Part shown: piece after piece, positions 3,728 to 64,000 of the stretch | Layout of the letters: each line of letters opens with the position of its first letter | Numbering within the stretch: position 1 is the first letter of the stretch | NCBI RefSeq assembly: GCF_028389875.1 | Contig: NC_084676.1 | Span: 1,550,001 to 1,614,000 of the forward strand | Direction of reading: 5' to 3' | Source of the DNA: Rhea pennata | Lineage: Eukaryota > Chordata > Aves > Rheiformes > Rheidae | Length of the DNA: 64,000 nucleotides | The notes under the pieces: model-generated | Told to the model about the DNA's origin: nothing | Seen by the model: only the letters and a program-made list of their open reading frames with translations | The model's database searches: none | Program-made: the position numbers and the translations under genes

Positions 3728-6294
3728 GGCTGAAAGTTCGTATTAATGTATTGGGTAGGAAAGGACTTGTTAGGATGTAGCCATTATCAACAACAAACAT
3801 TTAAAAACCCTGAAATTGATAGGTAAGGCTATTAAAAATTAAGAAAAGCTACAATTTACAAAAAAAATATAGTAAGTTCCATGTTAACAATAACTTTAAA
3901 AAGAAATTTGAGAATAGAAAGATTAAAGTAACAACTTCACCAGTTCCTGGGGAGAATATAAACTCCAAGTCAAATCTTCATCGCTGAAAACAGGTTTAAG
4001 GGAAAAAGAAGTGTACAGGCTCTTCTATTCCTTAATTAAACATTACATTGTAAAAACAGTCATATCCCCTTTTTACAAAGATTGCATATGACAAATACAT
4101 TATAGAGGTGGCCTCAAAGATAGTTCTGATGTATCGTGTATACAGAATCCTTTGGGTCTGGAACATGAATATACTGCATAAGTATGAAAAACAAAGCTCA
4201 AAAGGAATCATGCTTTCCAGAGATGTTTGTTTTGTTACTAGACAGGAGAAAGATTGTCAAGTCCTCTTTAGTTATTTAATTATGAAAGCCTTCTGTTTGC
4301 ATGTATGACATACATGTTATTTCATGAAATAGGTAATTGTATGAACAACATTACAGAAAATAGAGAATCATAAAACAAGAATCAGCAGTACAGGAGATGC
4401 TGTTCGTTTCATGGAACGATTGCTAAAGTGAATGCAATGAACTCCTTTACCACTACAGTGGTGTAGAACAGTCAGTACATGAGGTTCATTGGATAGCATC
4501 TTCTGGTTTGGCAAACACTGGAGATCTCCCCCTAGACTGTGTACTGTGGTTCCTCTTCCTGCCCTTCCTCACCAGTGAGAGACCAAGGATTCCTACTCTG
4601 TTTGTTTTCCTCATTCCTGTGCACTGTCTCCTCTTCCAACCCTATGTGGAAAACCGTCTGTACTCTTTTCCCAAGCTTTCTTCATAGTGAAAAAGCTCTT
4701 CCTGTTTGGAAGAGCTTTACCTATTCAACAAGACAGCACTGATGCAAACAGGATGATGTTGAGACTTAATCAGATCTGTGGAGCTGGCACTGTGCACGCA
4801 GTATTGCAAACATTGGTGTGTAGGCAGTTACAAGTATGCCAGGTCGTATATTTGTAGTATTGCACTTTTAGAGTGTAGAGAAGAACATTCCCATCAGATC
4901 TGAGGGCTTTAGAATTAATTTATAAGCATCGAGTTTTCCCCTAAGCAGAATCCTTTAAGTACTTAAAAAGATACAAAAAAGTGAATATGTGGTACCTATT
5001 CAAAACTGGGAGTTATTTTAAGTTACAAAAACTCTCAAAGTTTAAGAAAAAATAAAACAGCTACTTTTTAAGACTTTCCTTATCACAGAAGAACACATCG
5101 TGTGCCATATCTCATTACACTAGAAAATTGCTGTTGTTAGAGTAACACACACAAAAAAAATCAATCTGACTGGCTCAATCTTGGAAAAATCAGGGAAGTA
5201 AGATTAAAATCTTGCTTCATAATGCAAGCCTAAAGTTAGTGACAGAGCTTCATTTTATATTTGCCTATGTAAAATACTGTGACTCTGTGATTCTGCCATG
5301 CCTATTCACAGAAAAAAACAGCAAGCTCTAGTGTTTCTTAACCTTGATACTGTTGTACTACAACAGGAAAAAAAGAAAAGAAGCATAATAGTATGGACCT
5401 TCCAATTTGAGAATTCACTGCTATATTGCTTTCCTTCCAAACAATTTTTGACAGCTCAACACAGTTTTGGCACTAGCCCTCTCTGTTTCTCCATTTCACA
5501 TACGATTTAATAATTTAGAAGAATTTTACAAATCTTTTAAAAGAGCCATCACATTCCCTTCCAAAAGGGATCAGGTTGTTAGAGCCTCACCTTGAAAAAG
5601 ACTGTGAATATTTCTGAGACCAGATCTTGTACCCTAGTTAAAGGAGTTCTGCAGTGTTTCTATGCAGACAATTCAGCTCACTCTCATTTTTGCTCCATGA
5701 CCTTCTCTGCATATCAGCCGCATTGAATACATACTAGCTTGGTCTCAGGCTCCTTTCTTGGGTGCACCATCTAATTCCCTCCACGGGGAATCCTGAACAC
5801 AGCTGACAAGATAGTTTGCTAAGGGCCCCAGTATGGATATGCACACTGCCAAGTTTGATTGCCTCTGACTTGACCTGTCAAGTCACAGTCCCAGAAGGCT
5901 TAGCACCATCTAACATACCTTTGTGTCATGCAATACACATGCTTGGGTATTGTGCTAAAAAACACCACTTTGATGGCTGCAACACAATGATCTCTATTTC
6001 AGACACCTCAAATCCAAAAGAAACATAAAGAATAATTGTATTCAAGGCACCACGTGGGATCCAGCGTGTGTTGGGCCAAGCACTATGTGGGGTGGGTCAG
6101 TGTGTACTAGCACTGAACAGTCTGGACCTGAACCAGTCAGTACCACACAGCTGAGCAGCCAGGTTCACACTGCTGCAACCACAGAATCAACACAGACCCA
6201 GGCTAAAGCTGTAGCTCTTGAACAGGAATCTGATAGTCACTAGGTGCTTGCTTAATGACGCTTTAAGTTTTTCTTGCTGTTTTTACTTTTTCAG

Positions 6295-6605
6295 AACCTG
6301 AAGCAGGAGAGGTGTCCCCCCCAGTGGGAGCTGGTGTGAACAGCAACAGCTGGACCTTTAAATTTGGACCGGGCAATCCCAAACAAGGTGGTCCTGGTGA
6401 GTTGCCAGACAAATTCATTATCCCAGGATCTCCTGCAATCATCTCCATCCGGCAGGAGCCGCCAAACAGCCAAATTGACAAAAGTGACTTCATTACCTTT
6501 GGCAAGAAGGAGGAGACCAAGAAAAAGAAGAAAAAGAAGAAGGGAAACAAGACTCAGGAGAAAAAAGAAAAGGGGAACAGCACCACTGAGAACAGTGACC
6601 AGTGA
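6295..6605 (+). CDS. PCDHA: Protocadherin-alpha constant exon 3 (C-terminal cytoplasmic end)
   Basis: This is the last of the constant exons spliced onto every alpha variable exon, so it forms the common C-terminus of all PCDHA proteins in the cytoplasm. The acceptor TTTTCAG ends at 6294. The exon opens in a split codon (phase 1: G from the previous exon plus AA), giving [20 protein letters not shown], and continues with [25 protein letters not shown] and [11 protein letters not shown]. It then runs into a block of lysines and ends in TTENSDQ before TGA at 6603-6605. This matches the mammalian alpha constant tail almost residue for residue, from memory. About 103 residues are encoded here, the usual size. 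The lysine-rich block is the known constant tail, not a low-complexity artefact. The exon has no start codon of its own, and the upstream exons are not in the window. Confidence 0.97.
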
Positions 6606-28568: not shown

Positions 28569-30963
28569 AACCGAGTTCTTGTGGGGTACTTTAACCACCC
28601 TGATATTTGCTGGCAGGATACTGCAGCAGGACAGAAGCAATCCAGGAGGTTTCTGAAGTGTATTGATGCTAACTGCTGAACACAGATGATTGAGCAGTTG
28701 AGGTGCTCTGCTGAACCTGAAACAAACAAGGAAGACCTGCTTGGGAATGTGAAGGCTGAGGGTAGCCTTAGCTGTAAAGGTGATGGGATGTTGGAATTCT
28801 GGATACTACAGTGAAGGAACTAGGCAAAAAGAATCATAATCCCAGACTTCAGGAGAGCACAATTTAGCCTGTTCAGGGACCTGCTTAGAATAATCCTATG
28901 GCAGACAGTTCCAGAGAGAAGACAGGTTCAGGAGAGCTGGTTAATATTCAAGGGGCACTTCCTTCCAGCTCAAGAATAGTCCATTTCAATGAGCAGAAAT
29001 CAAGTAAAGCTGGTAGAAAGCCTGCATGGATGAGCAAGGAGGTCCTGACTAAACTCAAACATTAAAAGGAATTGTATGAGAGGGGTGAAGCAGGGACAAG
29101 CGGTTCAGGAGGAATATAGAGACACTGTCTGAGTGTGTAGGAGTGGACTTAGAAAAGCCAAAGCCCATCTGGAATTAAATCTGGTGAGATGTGTGAAGGG
29201 CATCTAGAAAGGCTTCTACAAATGCGTTGACATCAAAAGGAAGGCTAGAGAAAATGTGCGCCTGCTGCTGAATGTGGCAGGGGCTTTGATGATAAAGGAC
29301 ATGGAAAAGACTGGGATCCCCACTGCCTTCTTTGCCTTAGCCTGACTGGTAAAACCAGCCTTTAGAAATCCCAGGTCCCTGAGACTAGTGGGAAAGTCAG
29401 GAGCAATCAAGATTTACCCATCAGGTTAAAAAACATTTAAGTAACATGAACATACCCAGCTCAATGGGTCTTGATGGAACGTACCCGTAAGTGTTGAGGG
29501 AATTGGCTGATGTCACTGCAAAGCCACTCTTAATTACCTTATTACCTTTGAAAGGCTGCAGCAATTGGGGGTGGTTCCTGAAGACTGAGAGAAAGTAAAT
29601 ATCACTACTATCTTCAAGAAGAGCAAGAAGGAGGATCTGGGGATCATCACTCTGGGAAGCTGATGGAGCAAATAATCCTCTTGAAAACCAGTTATGAAGG
29701 ACAAGAAGGTGACTGGGAGTAGCCAGCATGGATTTGTGAAGGGAAAATTATACTTGACCTAACTGATAGCTTCTATAATCAGATGACTAGCTCAGTGGAT
29801 GAGGGAAGAGCAGTAGATGTTGTTCATTTTGTCTTTAGCAAGGCTTTCAACAGTCTCCTGTAACTCCCTCATAGATAAATTGAAGAAGTATGGCTCAGAT
29901 TACTAATTAGTGAGATGAATTGAAAACTAACTGCACTGCTGGGCAAAAGGGAATGTGATCAGCAGTATGACATCCAGCTGGAGACCAGTCACTAGGAATG
30001 TAGTCACCAGGAGTCAATATTGGGGCAAATACTGTTTAATAGTTTCATTAATGACCTGCATAATGGGACAGAATGCACCTTCATCAACTTTGCAGATAAC
30101 AAAAAACAGAAAGGAGCATCAGATACACCATATGGTTGTGCTGTTCTTCAGAGGAATTTTGACAGGCTGGAAAAATGGGATGACAGGGATCTCATGAAGT
30201 TCAGCAAAGGGAAATGTAAAGTTCTGCACTTGAGGAGTAGTAACCCTATGCATTGGTACAAACTGTAGCTGACAAACTGAAAAGTAGCTTTGCAGAGGAC
30301 CAGGGAATCTGGGTGGACAGCGGTTTGAACATGAGCCAAGAATATGCCCTTGTAGCAAGGAAGACCAACAGTATTCCGGGTTGCATTAGAAAGAGTGTTG
30401 CAACCAGCAGGTTGAGGGAGGTGATTATTCCCCTCTTCTCAGCACTGCTGAGACCACATCTGAAGTGCTGTGCCCATTTCTGGGCTCCCCTGTACAAGAG
30501 AAACATGGACCTATTAGAGTGAGTCCAGCAAAGGGGCACAAAGGTAATTAAGGGATTGGCACATCTGACATATGAAAAGAGTCTGAGAGAGCTGGGATTG
30601 TTCAGCCTGGAAAAGAGAAGGCTCCAGGAAAAAATATCCATGTGAATAAATACCTAATGGAAGGGAGCAAAGGAGGTGGAGCCAGACTCCTCTCAGTGGT
30701 GATCAGTGTACAAAACAATGAGCACAAACTGAAATACAGGAAATTCTCTTTAAATATGAAAAAAGTACTTTTTTTTTTATTTAACTGCAAGGGTAATTGA
30801 GAAGTGGAGCAAGTTGTCCAGAGAAGTTGAGGATTAAGATATTTAAAACCCAACTGGCCAAGTGCCGGAGAAACCTACTGTAGCTGACCCTACTTTGAGC
30901 AGGGTGGTTGGACTAGATGATCTCAGAGGTCCCTTCCAACCTCAAGCATTCTGTGATTCTGTG
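28569..30963 (+). mobile_element. Long CR1 LINE with most of ORF2, decayed
   Basis: This copy of about 2.4 kb reads in the + direction and ends with GGTTGGACTAGATGATCTC, CCCTTCCAACCTC and the ATTCTGTG octamer tail at about 30963. It covers the end of the endonuclease domain, with a segment at about 28.57 kb recalling the family's DFNHPDICW motif, and the whole reverse transcriptase. RT traces are GQILFNSFINDL at about 30.02 kb and FADN where the family has the catalytic FADD or YADD box, plus LEKWDDRDLMKFSKGKCKVL just after. The frame is broken repeatedly by stops and shifts, so no functional protein is made. The start is set where similarity becomes visible; the missing front part reflects 5' truncation. 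Confidence 0.92.
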
Positions 30964-52850: not shown

Positions 52851-55280
52851 ATGCTGAGAACCACAGAGGATGCCCCGAAAGGATGGTTTTCCTGGAAACT
52901 GATGGCGAGCAGAGGCATCAAAAGGCAAGTGAGCTTGTTTATTCTCTGTGTATGCGTCTGTCAAACCGGGTCTGAAACCCTGCGCTATACTCTGGCAGAG
53001 GAAATGGAGAAGGACTCCTTTGTGGCCAACGTTGCAAAGGACCTGGGGGTTTCTCTCAGCCAGCTCGCTGCTCGCAAGGCCCGCGTTGTATCCGAGGGGA
53101 ACGAGCAGTATTTCCTGCTGAATCAAGACACGGGAGTCCTGACAGTGAAGGAAACGCTAGACAGAGAGGAGATCTGTCCACAGAGCGATATCTGCACACT
53201 CTTCTTTAAGATATTCTTTGAAAATCCATTGCAACTGATACGAGGGGAAGTGGAGATTCTTGACATAAATGACAACTCCCCTGTATTCCTAGAAAAGGAG
53301 ATGGTTCTAGAGATTCTGGAAACGGCATCTCCGGGGTCTCGTTTCCCTTTGGAAAGTGCCAGAGACACTGACGTGGGGAGCAACGGCCTGCAAAAATACA
53401 GCCTCGGGCCCAACTCACATTTTTCTCTAGATCTTGGGACCGGAAAGGATGGGGGGAAATACGCAGAGCTTGTACTACAGCAGCACCTGGACCGCGAAGA
53501 CCAGCCAGAAGTAAATTTGCTTCTCATCGCCACTGACGGGGGCTCACCTCCCAGGTCAGGCACGGCTCAGGTCCGGATCGTGGTGCTGGATGCCAATGAC
53601 AATAATCCTGTCTTTGGTCGGGAAGTCTATGAGGTACGCCTGGCCGAAAACAGCCCGCCGGAGCAGCTAGTGGTTAGAGTCGCGGCTGAGGATCCCGATG
53701 AAGGGTCCAATGGCAAAGTGCGATATGCCTTCACTCAAACGTCAGAGCGGTCTCGCCACCTCTTTCAGCTGAACCCTGCCACCGGTGAGATATGGATCTC
53801 GGGCAACCTGGACTTCGAGGAAGCAAAAAGCCATGAGATGGTGGTGAGAGGCACCGATGGTGGGGGGCTGTCTGCGCATTGCAAAGTGCACGTGGAGGTC
53901 CTGGATGTGAACGACAACGCCCCAGAGATAGCACTTACCTCCATCTCCGCCTCCATTCCCGAGGACGCCCCACCCCGAACCGTGGTGGCCTTGTTCAAAG
54001 TGCGAGATCGAGACTCTGGAGACAACGGGAGAACGGAGTGTGCGATCAATGAGGACTTGCCCTTCGGTCTCACAGCCACTTTCGACAATTACTACGAGCT
54101 GCGGACAGACGCGGCCCTGGACAGGGAGAGAGCGGCGGAATACAACATCACCATCACGGCCATGGACTGGGGCACACCGCGGCTGAGTTCTGAGGAAAGC
54201 ATCTTCGTGCAGATATCTGATGTGAACGACAACCCCCCGGAGTTCACAAAGGCAGTTTACACCATGTCAGTGAAGGAGAACAACAGCCCAATGCTCCGAA
54301 TCGGCAGCGTGAACGCGACGGATGCTGACACGGGGAAAAACGCCCGCGTGAGCTACGCGCTGGTGTGGGAGCAGGGAAAGAAGTCCAATGTGTCAGTCAA
54401 CTCGGAGAATGGGGAACTTTATATCCTCCGTCCACTGGACTACGAGGAGGTGCGCGCCTTCCAGGTAGCCGTGCGTGCCGTTGACGGCGGCTCGCCGCCG
54501 CTCAGCACCGAGGCGCTGGTGCGTGTGGAGGTGCGGGACGAGAACGACAACGCGCCCGTCGTGCTGCACCCGCTGCCCAACAGCAGCGCGGCGGTGGGCG
54601 AGCTGGTGCCGCGCCGGGCACAGGCCGGCTACCTGGTGGCCAAGGTGGTGGCGGTGGACGCGGACTCGGGGCAGAACGCGTGGCTCTCCTACGAGCTGGC
54701 CAAGGCCACGGAGCCGGGGCTCTTCCGCGTGGGGCTGCACAGCGGCGAGGTGCGCACGGCGCGGGCCGTGTCGGAGCGCGACGCGGCCCGGCAGAGACTC
54801 GTGGTGCTTGTGAGAGACAGCGGGCAGCCGCCGCGCTCCTCCACCGTCACCCTCAGCCTCGCCCTAGTGGAGGGCTTTTCTGAAGCCCACCTGCGAGTCA
54901 GCGAGGAGGTGCCCGCCGACGACCCCGACGCGCCACTGACGCCGTACCTCATCATCTGCTTGTCCTCCGTGTCGGCACTGTTCCTGATCACCGTGGTGGC
55001 CATTGTGGTTGTGAAGGTGCGGCGGGCCAGGGGGAGGGAGGCAGAGACAGGGCCCGCTTTCCCGAAGATTGCCGGGGAAGGTAGCTCCGGCTCCCTGCCT
55101 CGCAGCTACGTGTACGATGTCTGCTTCGCTGCCGGGACTATCAACAGCGAGTTCCGGTTCCTCAGGCCCCTCTTCCCCTGTTTCCCAGCCGGACTGCCCC
55201 CCGGTCCAGGAGACCAGCGGAGCTCTGTGTGTTCGCAAGACGTGGCCAGCCTCAGGGAAGAAGGTGACTGGACAGCACAG
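52851..55280 (+). CDS. Clustered protocadherin variable first exon, beta/gamma type (first copy)
   Basis: This is a calcium-dependent, homophilic neuronal adhesion receptor of the plasma membrane. The 810 codons hold a signal peptide with hydrophobic core VSLFILCVCVC (about 27-37), then six cadherin repeats: EC1 about 41-143, EC2 144-253, EC3 254-358, EC4 359-463, EC5 464-569 and EC6 570-680. Linker motifs are DINDN, DANDN, DVNDN, DVNDN and DENDN, and EC1 has the clustered-protocadherin CX5C pair (C109, C115). The membrane segment is about 699-722, followed by a short tail with SYVYDVCFAAG and FRFLRP. The exon ends CAG/GTAAGG in phase 0 at 55280; read-through would add 26 residues before a stop. 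An alternative start at Met18 (52902), which opens a more typical signal peptide, is equally plausible. The constant exons lie outside the window. Confidence 0.95.
54429..54880 (+). repeat. Homogenised EC5-EC6 tract, copy 1
   Basis: These 452 bp, codons 527-677 of the first variable exon, are identical to 62881-63332 except T54524 versus C62976, a silent CGT/CGC change. Identity stops abruptly at both ends. It is read as gene conversion between neighbouring variable exons. Confidence 0.95.
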
Positions 55281-58200
55281 GTAAGGGACCTGCGCGGGGC
55301 AAGGCTCCAGGGAGGGAGGTGGATGGAGCAAAGGGAAGGGTGGGGGAGGTGTTATCGTTGACTATGGGTGCGGCACAGAGGGGAGTAGCAAACAGGCGGA
55401 GCTGGTGCAGCAGGAATCCCTGGAGAGAAGGCATGGGCCGGAGACGGTCTCACAGGCGCTGGTGGAGGCTTACCATGGAGATCTGGCACGGCCCAGCTGC
55501 ACTCCAAGTGCTGGATTACTGAACTTTTCTGCATCCGCTCTGTCGAGGTATAAAGCAGGATGTAAATGGAAAACAGCTTTCCCAGGACTATTGTCACTAA
55601 AGTGGAAATAAGTGACCCGGATCACAGCGCCACTGCAGATACCCGGAAGATCCTCTGATTATTTGCACTAGATAAAGTCTCTGGTGTCATCCGAATGGTG
55701 GGCAATTGGATCATGAGAAGACGAGGCCTGTGGAATGGATATATGAGCCACCGACAGATGAAGTAGAAGGTGGGGCATCTGTCCATGCACTGCAAAGAGC
55801 CCGTGGTGATCCAGGGCAGGAATGATACTGCTCCCAAAGAGACGGCCTCCCTGGGACGGTGGTGGTCCTGTCCGAGTGAACAAGCAGGACTCCGGGTACA
55901 ATAATATGGTGGGCTGCCCTATCGTTGACAACATCCTCCAACAGCTATTCGAAGCTGGGGTGGTTATCGGTGCTGGTGGTGGAACTGACTTGAGGCAGTG
56001 TTAAGGAAATTTCCAGTATACTCTGATTTTGCAGAAAAAGAACGTGCAAAGTCGCAAGCCCTGCAAGCAGAATATCTTCTCTGACCTTACCTTAGCCCTG
56101 TTTTTCTTGCAAAGTTGAAGAACTACAAAGAAACACGTTTAATCCAGCCAAGAGTACAAAAGTTGTTCAAAGGTAACACCGGAAGAGGTGTAAAAATTGG
56201 GTCAAATAAGGCTGGTACGGATCTCGTACTGTAACATGGCAAGGGGACTGGCAGAACTAAGAATCGTGGCTAGACCTGGTTAGTTATGTAAACTAAAGTA
56301 TTGAACACGTAATAACATATTATCACTTTAAAATTGTAACAAAAAGCTACTCGAGGTCCCTTCTTGTGTTCCCAGCCAAGAGACACCTTATTTCCAGCAA
56401 CAAAACTTTAAAAAATTAGAAATCTGGTTCCTGCTGCTCATTACCGCTGCCCACAACCGAAAGCAAGAGAACAGATAATTTTGAGAGCTGAAAGCCAGAG
56501 CGTTCTACAAGTTACTGAAAGCCACAGAGCACACCTCTGCCATTAACATCCATTGTATTTTTGTCATATATATTAATAATATTGGCCGGTTAGATGTGGA
56601 AATCTGGGCTTTGTAATGCATCCTCCCTGTTCGTTCCTGATCCACTCAAGCGCTCATGAAAAGCACCAGCAACCCTGTCCATAGTGCTGCTATGAAGATC
56701 CCTTGTCACTGATCTTGGGCATGGGGCAGTTTCACTGTCTGGGGTCCCACAGACTTTCATTTTCTCTGACGGGAGCAGAGCACCTGCTTGCAGCATCGCA
56801 TTAGCCTTGAAAGCACGAAAGAGAGTCCTTAGGAGAAATAAATGCTTTCATTACGAGTGCCATTGCATTGCACAAAGATCTTTCATTTCTAGTAGTTTTC
56901 TGTTATTGCTGTTCCTTCCCATTTCCATTTGGTTCAGATGGGTACACTCTCGTACTCTCTTCTCTCCCAGTTATCCTCTTAAGAAGACTCTGCAAACTGC
57001 TATTCTTGTCTCCTCAAGCTGTGTCATATCCAGCAAGAAAAGTTAATGGCTAACTAAGGAAAAACAAACCGGAGCTGCTTAGCGATTTGCAGGACATGCC
57101 TGCCGTTTAGAGACGTCTCTGTGGGCTCAGTAGAATACGAAAAACAATTAGGAATCTGATCTTATCTCTTTTTGAGTAATCTTAGCGAATCTCTTCTTTC
57201 TTTTTTTTCCCCGAGGGTAGTTTGCAGCTTGTATAGTTGATGCCTATTTCCAGATTTAAAAAGTCCAAGGACAAAAGAGAGAGAAAAAAGGTATCTGATC
57301 CCCCCACCTACAAGCTGCGCCTTGAATCTGCCATGTGAATATCTTCAATTCCATGCATTCAATCTTAGATGTCATCTTTCTCGGTCCAACGTCTGCCATT
57401 CACCACTATTGGCCCACAAATGCTATGAATTTCTCTGTCCTCCAGTGGAGGTTGCAGTGGCTGGAATGATGACAATCAGTGGACAAGGGGCAAGAGATTG
57501 GGGAGATGTGGCCCAAAGGCAGCTGAAAGCTGCCAAGGAAGAGGACGAACCAGAAGGACAAGGGAGAAATGCTGAGAGAAGTCGAGAAGTAACGCAGCCC
57601 AACTCATCTCTGTGGCATCTATTGTTAAGAGCTGAGATAAGAGAGATATCAGTGTTGTGCACAGGAGTTTTAAAATAGTAACAAAGGTTGTAACGTCCTG
57701 CTGCAGGGAGCCCAAATCCTTCATAGTGAGCACTTTGCTCTTTTATCACCAAAACCTCCTGCTATCTGTGGCAACAAGAAAAACAGTCTGTAAAAATATA
57801 CACCACCTGAAAGGAAAGGTCAGATCCTGCAGCTGATCTCAGTGACTCTAAGAAGAATAGTTGTTTTAGTCTCAGCAAATACTTAAAATGTTCTCTCACT
57901 GTGGGATTTCCTGATGGTTTCTTGAAGTAAATATTTGTACATTTGGGAGTATGTTTAAACTTACAATGTCCTCTAGTATTTGTATGTTGCATATGTCCTG
58001 AATAAATTTAATAACACTCGTCATTAAATTCTGTTGTGCTACATAAAAAAAAGAACGATTCCAGTTTTGCTTTGCTCTACGGAGCAAGGTGTTAGTAGGG
58101 GATATTAATTTTCTTAGGCCGATCTATCACAATTTAGTTTCCTACCAGTAGGATAGCCACATCCTCCGCAAGAAAGTACCTCACGTCCAACCCAGTGGAT

Positions 58201-61338: not shown

Positions 61339-63768
61339 ATGGAGCTGAGAAAGAGCGAGAAACCACTCCCAGGGCGAGCGATGCCTCTGATCCTGCTCCT
61401 CTGTGTGTCGGGGGTGAGTGGAGAAACCGCCCGGTACTCTGTGCCTGAAGAGGCAGAGAGAGGCTTCTTTGTGGCGAATATCGCGAAGGATTTGGGACTC
61501 ACGGCTGAAGAATTACTGACTCGCCAGGCCCGGCTCGTACCTGAAGGAAATGGGCACTATTTACAGCTGAACCAGCATACTGGGGATTTGGTGGTGCAAG
61601 AAAGGATGGATCGAGAGGTGCTGTGCGGGCAGAGTGAGCCTTGCCTGGTGCGATTCCAGGTGCTGCTAGAGAGTCCACTTCAGTCCTTCCGTGCCGAGGT
61701 AAGCATCACTGATATAAACGATCATGCTCCCATGTTCTTAAGCAATGAGATGATTTTAAGGATCCCAGAAACTGCAATGCCAGGAGCTCGATTTTTGTTG
61801 GAAAGTGCTTATGACCCAGATGTGGGGAATAACAGTCTCCATCATTATAACATCAGCTCCAATGACTATTTCCGTATTTCCACACGGAGGAGGAATGATG
61901 GCAGGCGCTATGCTGAGCTGGTCCTGGACCGAGCCCTGGACAGGGAGGAGCGGGCAGAAGTCACTTTAAGCTTCACGGCTGTGGATGGCGGGTCTCCACC
62001 GCGGTCTGCTACAGCCCTGATCCACGTGCAAGTTCTGGATGTAAACGACAACGTCCCAGTATTCACCAAGAGTCTGTATAAAGTCCGAGTGTTTGAAAAT
62101 AGCACTAAAGACACCTTAGTGGTGGCAGTGTCTGCTAGCGATTTAGACGCAGGAATGAATGGGGAAATAGCGTACTCCATCATTCAGAATTCAGAGGAGA
62201 ATCATCAGACTTTTAAAATAAATCCTAAGACAGGGGACATTCGACTCAAAAAGACAGTGGATTATGAAGAAACAAAGACTTACGAGATAGATGTCCAGGC
62301 CACAGATGGAGGGGGCCTGTCTACGCACTGCAAGGTTCTGGTGGAGGTCGTCGATGTGAATGACAATGCCCCCGAGGTGACCATCACTTCTCTGACGAGC
62401 CCCCTCTCGGAAGCAGCCCCGCCGCAGACCGTGGTGGCCTTGTTCAGTGTGCGAGACCGGGACTCGGGGGACAACGGCAGGACGAGCTGCGAGCTGCTGG
62501 GCGAAGTGCCTTTCAGTATCACGGCGCTGGCGGCAGGCTCGTACGCGCTAGTGACGACGGAGGCGCTGGACCGGGAACGCGAGGCCGCGTACAACATTAC
62601 TGTGCGGGCCCGCGATGCGGGGGCCCCCGCACTCTCTATGGCACAGACGCTACTCGTGCGGCTTTCGGACGTGAATGACAACGCGCCCACCTTCACCCAG
62701 GCCTCCTACACCATGGTGCTGCACGAGAACGAGCCCGCGGGGACAAGCCTGGGCCGCGTGAGCGCAACGGACACCGACACAGGGAAAAACGCCCGCGTGA
62801 GCTACGCGCTGGTACCGTCTGCGCTCGGCGTGCCCTCCTTAGTGTCGGTCGACGCTGAGAGCGGAGCCGTGCGAGCGATGCGTCCACTGGACTACGAGGA
62901 GGTGCGCGCCTTCCAGGTAGCCGTGCGTGCCGTTGACGGCGGCTCGCCGCCGCTCAGCACCGAGGCGCTGGTGCGCGTGGAGGTGCGGGACGAGAACGAC
63001 AACGCGCCCGTCGTGCTGCACCCGCTGCCCAACAGCAGCGCGGCGGTGGGCGAGCTGGTGCCGCGCCGGGCACAGGCCGGCTACCTGGTGGCCAAGGTGG
63101 TGGCGGTGGACGCGGACTCGGGGCAGAACGCGTGGCTCTCCTACGAGCTGGCCAAGGCCACGGAGCCGGGGCTCTTCCGCGTGGGGCTGCACAGCGGCGA
63201 GGTGCGCACGGCGCGGGCCGTGTCGGAGCGCGACGCGGCCCGGCAGAGACTCGTGGTGCTTGTGAGAGACAGCGGGCAGCCGCCGCGCTCCTCCACCGTC
63301 ACCCTCAGCCTCGCCCTAGTGGAGGGCTTTTCGGACGCCTTCCTGCAGCTTTCCCACGCTCCTGTGAGCAGGCCAGAGGCGGAGGAGGAGGAGAATCTGC
63401 TAGTCACCTACCTCATCGCTTCCTTGTGCTCCATCTCGTCTCTCTTCCTCTTATTCATCGTCGCCTTTTCAGGTGCGAAGGTCTGCAACGGTCGACTATG
63501 GGGAGGACGTTCACCTCCCTCTGCCCACTGCTACGCTGATGGTGATTTCTCCAGTAGTTTTGTGGACATGGCCGGCATGGCTACTCTGTCGCGGGGTTAC
63601 CGCTACGAAGTATGCTTGACTACTGGCTCAGGGAACAGCGGATTCAAGTTCCTAAGACCCGTCCTCCCGAGTCCACCTCCTCCACAAAGCTGCTCTGAGA
63701 TGGAAGCGGGCAAGGATGAAGAAATTCTGTCCCGCTCACAACCAACTTGTGAAAGTGAAGTTAATCAG
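61339..63768 (+). CDS. Clustered protocadherin variable first exon, beta/gamma type (second copy)
   Basis: This is a paralogue of the first variable exon, also 810 codons up to the donor and intact. The signal peptide core is MPLILLLCVSGVSG (15-28). EC1 spans about 29-132, EC2 133-241, EC3 242-345, EC4 346-451, EC5 452-557 and EC6 558-668. Linkers are DINDH, DVNDN, DVNDN, DVNDN and DENDN, and EC1 has the CX5C pair C96/C102. The membrane segment is about 689-711. The tail carries SRGYRYEVCLTTGSG and FKFLRP, strongly reminiscent of mammalian PCDHB tails. A CAG/GTGAGA donor in phase 0 lies at 63768/63769, one residue off the first exon's donor when counted from the shared FLRP motif. Without splicing, translation would stop after eight more residues (TAG at 63793-63795), giving a beta-like single-exon protein of 818 residues. 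Gamma-type splicing is favoured but not proven. Confidence 0.95.
62881..63332 (+). repeat. Homogenised EC5-EC6 tract, copy 2
   Basis: Partner of 54429-54880, covering codons 515-665 of the second variable exon, with one silent difference in 452 bp. It is strongly GC-rich, unlike the 5' half of the same exon. Confidence 0.95.
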
Positions 63769-64000
63769 GTGAGAACAACTTCACCGTATGTTTAGTTGCT
63801 CCTCCCCGCATGCAAATTGGAATATGGGGACGCGTTTACAAGTAAGCCTTCCTGGAACAGTGCTTCTCATCCTTAGAGCAAGACCGGCGATTAGATTCAG
63901 TGCCAGTGCTGTGCTGTAATATATATTGCCTATCTAACGTTAGCTCTGTGGTGTGTTGATTTCTCTGCTTCGGGTAACTTACGAGATCCCGTGACTTTAA
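63769..64000 (+). other. Start of the intron after the second variable exon
   Basis: The sequence begins with GTGAGA and turns AT-richer at once. No further exon is visible before the window ends. Confidence 0.6.

Follow-up and report, generated by a model that had tools for sequence, protein, structure and literature searches.

A near-identical EC5–EC6 tract in two otherwise diverged protocadherin exons of Rhea pennata, and its probable origin by gene conversion

Protocadherin exons at the locus

The window analysed in the present study is a 64,000-nucleotide stretch of the Rhea pennata genome (contig NC_084676.1), and its protocadherin features are collected in Table 1. Two ORFs of 836 and 818 aa carry the same series of domain matches (Cadherin_2, five Cadherin stretches and Cadherin_C_2), and the ectodomains of both match gamma B4 (6e6b) over their whole length. 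Judged by their sequence, both ORFs are clustered-protocadherin variable exons, being uninterrupted and specifying six EC domains, a membrane segment and a short tail. The predicted phase-0 donors of both look strong, so that the two exons are probably spliced to a constant exon. Mammalian beta genes are not known to have a donor for splicing of this kind, its possession being a gamma-type trait.

Table 1. Protocadherin features of the window (position 1 is the first nucleotide of the window; the slash marks the exon end).
Feature	Position	Strand	Basis and remarks
Alpha-cluster constant exon 3, 103 residues and stop	6294..6605	+	Protein match to a mammalian alpha constant sequence
First protocadherin variable exon, ATG to predicted donor	52851..55280	+	EC1-EC6, membrane segment, short tail; ORF to 55361
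Near-identical tract, copy 1	54429..54880	+	Pairwise match; late EC5 (about the last 40 residues) and EC6
Predicted splice donor CAG/GTAAGG, phase 0	55281..55286	+	Sequence
Second protocadherin variable exon, coding to predicted donor	61339..63768	+	Domain matches; ORF to 63795
Near-identical tract, copy 2	62881..63332	+	Pairwise match
Predicted splice donor CAG/GTGAGA, phase 0	63769..63774	+	Sequence

Over its 103 residues, the segment 6294-6602 has 96% identity to a mammalian alpha constant sequence, and it was identified as alpha constant exon 3. Its presence in the window supplies the setting of a protocadherin cluster and makes the two variable exons the first protocadherin exons found downstream of the alpha cluster. 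The protein specified by this constant exon is near-mammalian, and its stretch of lysine codons also registers as a tandem repeat, at 6504-6579. A gamma constant query gave nothing convincing there (best E 0.92), and tblastn searches of the window with both proteins, at E up to 1e-3, returned no further intact protocadherin exons there. The two exons named in the preliminary description are both present, but that number may understate the cluster, which probably extends past the end of the window. Just past the first exon, at 55473-55935, there is a weak protocadherin-like match in two frames with about 28% identity; stop codons occur in all three forward frames of this segment, which may be a decayed cadherin fragment.

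Extent of the shared tract

The two exons share a tract of 452 bp whose copies differ at a single base, T at 54524 against C at 62976. The change is silent, as had been described beforehand, and falls at a third codon position. Direct comparison showed that the match is maximal, the adjoining base differing on both sides, and so the sharp ends that had been placed at RPLDYEEVR and VEGFS could be upheld. Read in frame, the tract comprises codons 527-676 of the first ORF, 150 in all, followed by two bases of Ser677, a codon that differs between the copies at its third base (TCT/TCG). At the domain level it takes in approximately the last 40 residues of EC5 together with EC6, a region covered by solved homologs, and it is embedded in a 1058-bp BLAST alignment of 81% identity.

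The longest exact run within the tract is 356 bp. When the codon columns of the 799 aligned codons of the two exons were permuted 5000 times, none of the shuffles reached this length, the largest run being 45 bp, and chance was rejected as its source. As a repeat control, exact repeats measuring 30 bp or longer were collected from both strands of the whole window. The longest were the two runs of the tract, 356 and 95 bp, and the remainder were mono- or dinucleotide runs except for one 32-bp match (54333-54364 / 62782-62813), which again links these two exons and is situated 65 bp upstream of the tract. Since this run falls within the range of the shuffles, it can do no more than hint at an exchange that was older or patchy.

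Divergence and base composition along the exons

Residues are identical at 225/420 positions of EC1-4, at 34/65 of the part of EC5 that precedes the tract, at 150/150 within the tract and at 48/130 beyond it, in agreement with the earlier statements that EC1-EC4 and the adjoining codons differ heavily and that the similarity stops before the membrane segment. Synonymous divergence, estimated by NG86 with JC correction, was 0.008 in the tract, 2.92 in codons 42-526 and 1.34 in codons 678-780, the high values being near saturation and therefore rough. The preliminary description had set an exchange against equal synonymous divergence along the whole exons, and the divergence found is far from equal. 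Apart from the tract, the two exons are old paralogs.

Codon choice follows the same pattern. Where the amino acids are identical and are not Met or Trp, the same codon is used at 148 of 149 positions inside the tract, for which the codon usage of the tract itself gives an expectation of about 90, as against 135 of 313 outside. EC4-5 is somewhat more alike than elsewhere outside the tract, with the same codon at 53 of 98 such positions in codons 350-526, by way of base composition or older exchange.

The tract is GC-rich, with a GC3 of 0.92 and a CpG o/e of about 1.04. GC3 is 138/150 in the copy of exon 1 and 139/150 in that of exon 2, whereas the ORF of exon 1 gives 338/526 before and 121/159 after the tract, and that of exon 2 gives 327/514 and 86/153. 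Over all non-tract codons, including those past the donor, the values are 459/685 (0.67) and 413/667 (0.62), respectively, and the excess in the tract is significant in both exons (Fisher p = 3e-11 and 2e-15). The rise fits GC-biased gene conversion and suggests repeated conversion events but, as the neighbouring EC4-5 and tail codons are already raised in GC3, it is not a mark of the latest event alone.

The tract contains one synonymous difference in 123.3 sites, with a 95% interval of 0.0002-0.044 for the uncorrected proportion. An avian substitution rate near 2e-9 per site per year would place the exchange at about 2 million years, within a range from near zero to approximately 11 million. 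To call it very recent, as was done at the outset, is reasonable at a dS of 0.008, but the age is loosely bounded by this interval, and ongoing concerted evolution would look alike.

Cis-dimer positions and subfamily affinities

In cis dimers of clustered protocadherins, EC6 of one partner meets EC5-6 of the second (PMC8901172). The gamma B7 numbering of that study was checked and its positions land on the expected letters of gamma B4. All seven cis-dimer positions that could be mapped with it (7/7) lie inside the tract, where L555, K558, V560, V562, A570 and R595 are as in the carrier (beta/gamma) chains. The position of Tyr532 in gamma B7 is occupied by His in both tract copies and by Tyr in four aligned clustered gamma chains; in gamma B7 the change Y532G is reported to prevent binding of gamma C3 and to affect that of gamma A4 slightly (PMC8901172). 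At position 590 the tract carries His, as does gamma A4, while gamma B7 has Arg. Because these letters are common to both isoforms, equal cis surfaces are predicted for their late EC5 and EC6; in early EC5 the two are not the same. A functional link between the tract and cis dimerization is plausible. According to a 2025 preprint, the cis interface alone is insufficient to explain surface delivery (PMC12157453).

Subfamily affinities were compared over EC1-4 against solved chains. By best single-stretch bits, exon 1 scored highest with gamma A9 (434), followed by beta 6 (421), beta 8 (418), gamma B2 (395) and gamma B4 (385), and exon 2 with beta 8 and beta 6 (both 458), followed by gamma A9 (391) and gamma B4 (372). 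By whole-sequence score, which sums stretches in longer chains, the non-clustered protocadherin-10 came top for both exons (485 and 467), and for exon 2 gamma B4 drew level with the beta chains at 457. The beta-like label of this exon therefore depends on the single-stretch scores. By those scores, EC1-4 of exon 2 would be nearest to the beta protocadherins among the solved clustered chains, a loose assignment.

Comparison with known systems

Gene conversion in zebrafish and mammalian clusters was reportedly found by Noonan et al. (2004), as related in papers that cite them, and would represent the same process in the same family. For Pcdh2 subclusters of fugu, the authors describe 3' segments that are >99% identical, have a raised GC3 and are set off by a discrete boundary that falls in EC4 or EC5, and read them as regional gene conversion (PMC1852091). 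The rhea exons resemble these subclusters in having a near-100% identical 3' part, a discrete boundary, a diverged 5' part and a raised GC3, but in fugu the members of whole subclusters are involved, whereas here two exons are seen and the identity ends before the membrane segment. In the anole, low dS in ECD5-6 is given for one group, gamma-a, with little conversion in the other three of four (PMC2764143). Low dS in ECD5 and ECD6 is a feature in common with the present exons, although in gamma-a it is a subgroup average reflecting limited conversion and here it takes the form of a single near-identical patch. EC5 or EC6 is generally the domain of lowest dS in Xenopus and mouse (PMC4978886), and the coelacanth is cited in the fugu paper as having no conversion (PMC1852091).

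Conversion is not universal in protocadherin clusters, there being little in three anole groups and none cited for the coelacanth. The same papers bear out the proposition that EC6 of clustered protocadherins is homogenised by conversion, clearly for fugu and more weakly for other vertebrates. Considering the patterns in fugu, anole, Xenopus and mouse, the process is known and this particular patch is apparently new. Among the papers listed in searches of the open-licence literature, none dealt with conversion in the protocadherin cluster of a bird, which says little.

Origin of the tract

The explanation we favour, and regard as very probable, is a recent ectopic (non-allelic) gene conversion without crossing over, some 452 bp long, between two tandem, anciently duplicated variable exons. 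The tract is bounded and in register, has near-zero dS between diverged, homologous flanks that are near saturation, shows a rise in GC3 and contains a run longer than random placement gives, and the original reading of gene conversion confined to late EC5 and EC6 is sustained by these features. Since the patch has two ends and is in register in both exons, the conversion would be of the non-crossover type. A break in one exon may have been repaired from the other exon, or both exons from a third, with pairing over an EC5-EC6 stretch that was already similar and GC-rich, and the copied patch would have ended ahead of the membrane segment. Repair would be the route of exchange, and GC3 suggests that exchange may have taken place more than once over time. 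Selection could tolerate or even favour it, since the cis-dimer surface common to the isoforms is in EC6, whereas EC1-4 have to remain distinct. It is possible that the donor lies elsewhere in the cluster, beyond the window.

Strong purifying selection acting on EC6 alone might also keep the copies alike, and the EC6 protein is well conserved in comparison with the solved gamma chains, but the likeness extends to synonymous codons (148/149 inside against 135/313 outside), the change is abrupt at both ends and near-zero synonymous divergence is confined to the tract. Purifying selection alone was rejected on the synonymous codons, and its probability is practically negligible. Hardly more credible is an origin by unequal crossing over or by a partial tandem duplication of recent date. 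Although the exons belong to a tandem cluster and have the same orientation, unequal crossing over would join one flank to the other paralog and would leave no two-ended patch in both exons, and neither it nor a duplication would give each copy diverged flanks at its two ends. The flanks observed are diverged, homologous and in register at either end of each copy; unequal crossing over was rejected on this geometry.

An assembly artefact, in which one sequence has been collapsed or filled into both places although the real copies are less alike, deserves more attention but is improbable. A near-identical, GC-rich stretch of this length and composition (GC3 0.92, CpG o/e about 1.04) is hard for short reads, and a copying error would give the same picture, including the sharp ends and the single mismatch. 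On the other hand, both ORFs are open and in register across both joints, the copies are separated by one mismatch, and the pattern agrees with the conversion published for the same domains of the same family (PMC1852091, PMC2764143). Array-wide concerted evolution, in which repeated exchange has made the tract common to more exons, is a wider form of conversion and not exclusive of the local event, and we lean only slightly against it. It would account for the GC3 rise, which is as expected from repeated conversion, and fugu subclusters behave in this way (PMC1852091). The 32-bp exact match upstream of the tract could have been left by an earlier or patchy exchange, but its length lies within the shuffle range of up to 45 bp.

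If recent gene conversion is the correct explanation, the locus offers a clean case of a tandem receptor cluster in which the recognition domains diverge and the shared dimer module is nevertheless kept uniform, and in which the patch can be delimited to the single base at either end. A case in exons next to the alpha cluster would thus be added to a process already established for protocadherins. A more specific version, which we think rather unlikely, is that the exchange crossed subfamilies at the border that follows the alpha cluster, giving a beta-like and a more gamma-A-like exon one identical late-EC5/EC6 cis-dimer module together with different trans domains and tails. If true, such a cross-subfamily exchange would amount to a natural module swap, leaving two kinds of isoform nearly equal in cis behaviour.

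Other features of the window

Seven stricter patterns for a CTCF-type promoter element gave 0 matches in the window. A CTCF core pattern, allowed two mismatches at most, was found 11 times against 7.28 expected, a number reached by 11 of 100 shuffles. The closest of these core-like matches precedes the first ATG by about 810 bp, and the second ATG has none close upstream. Inside the tract there are two such loose matches on the minus strand, hence present in both copies, at 54626-54639/63078-63091 and 54857-54870/63309-63322, the total for the window being not above chance.

Diverged interspersed repeat pairs, 69–85% identical, are found at 28941-29303/39125-39480 and 21389-21811/30532-30962. 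The edge of the latter pair carries a motif like the 3' end of CR1 elements, which is exact at 30948 and is compatible with a bird as the source. With up to two mismatches this motif occurs three times in the window, compared to an expectation of 0.24, and only one of 100 shuffles reached three.
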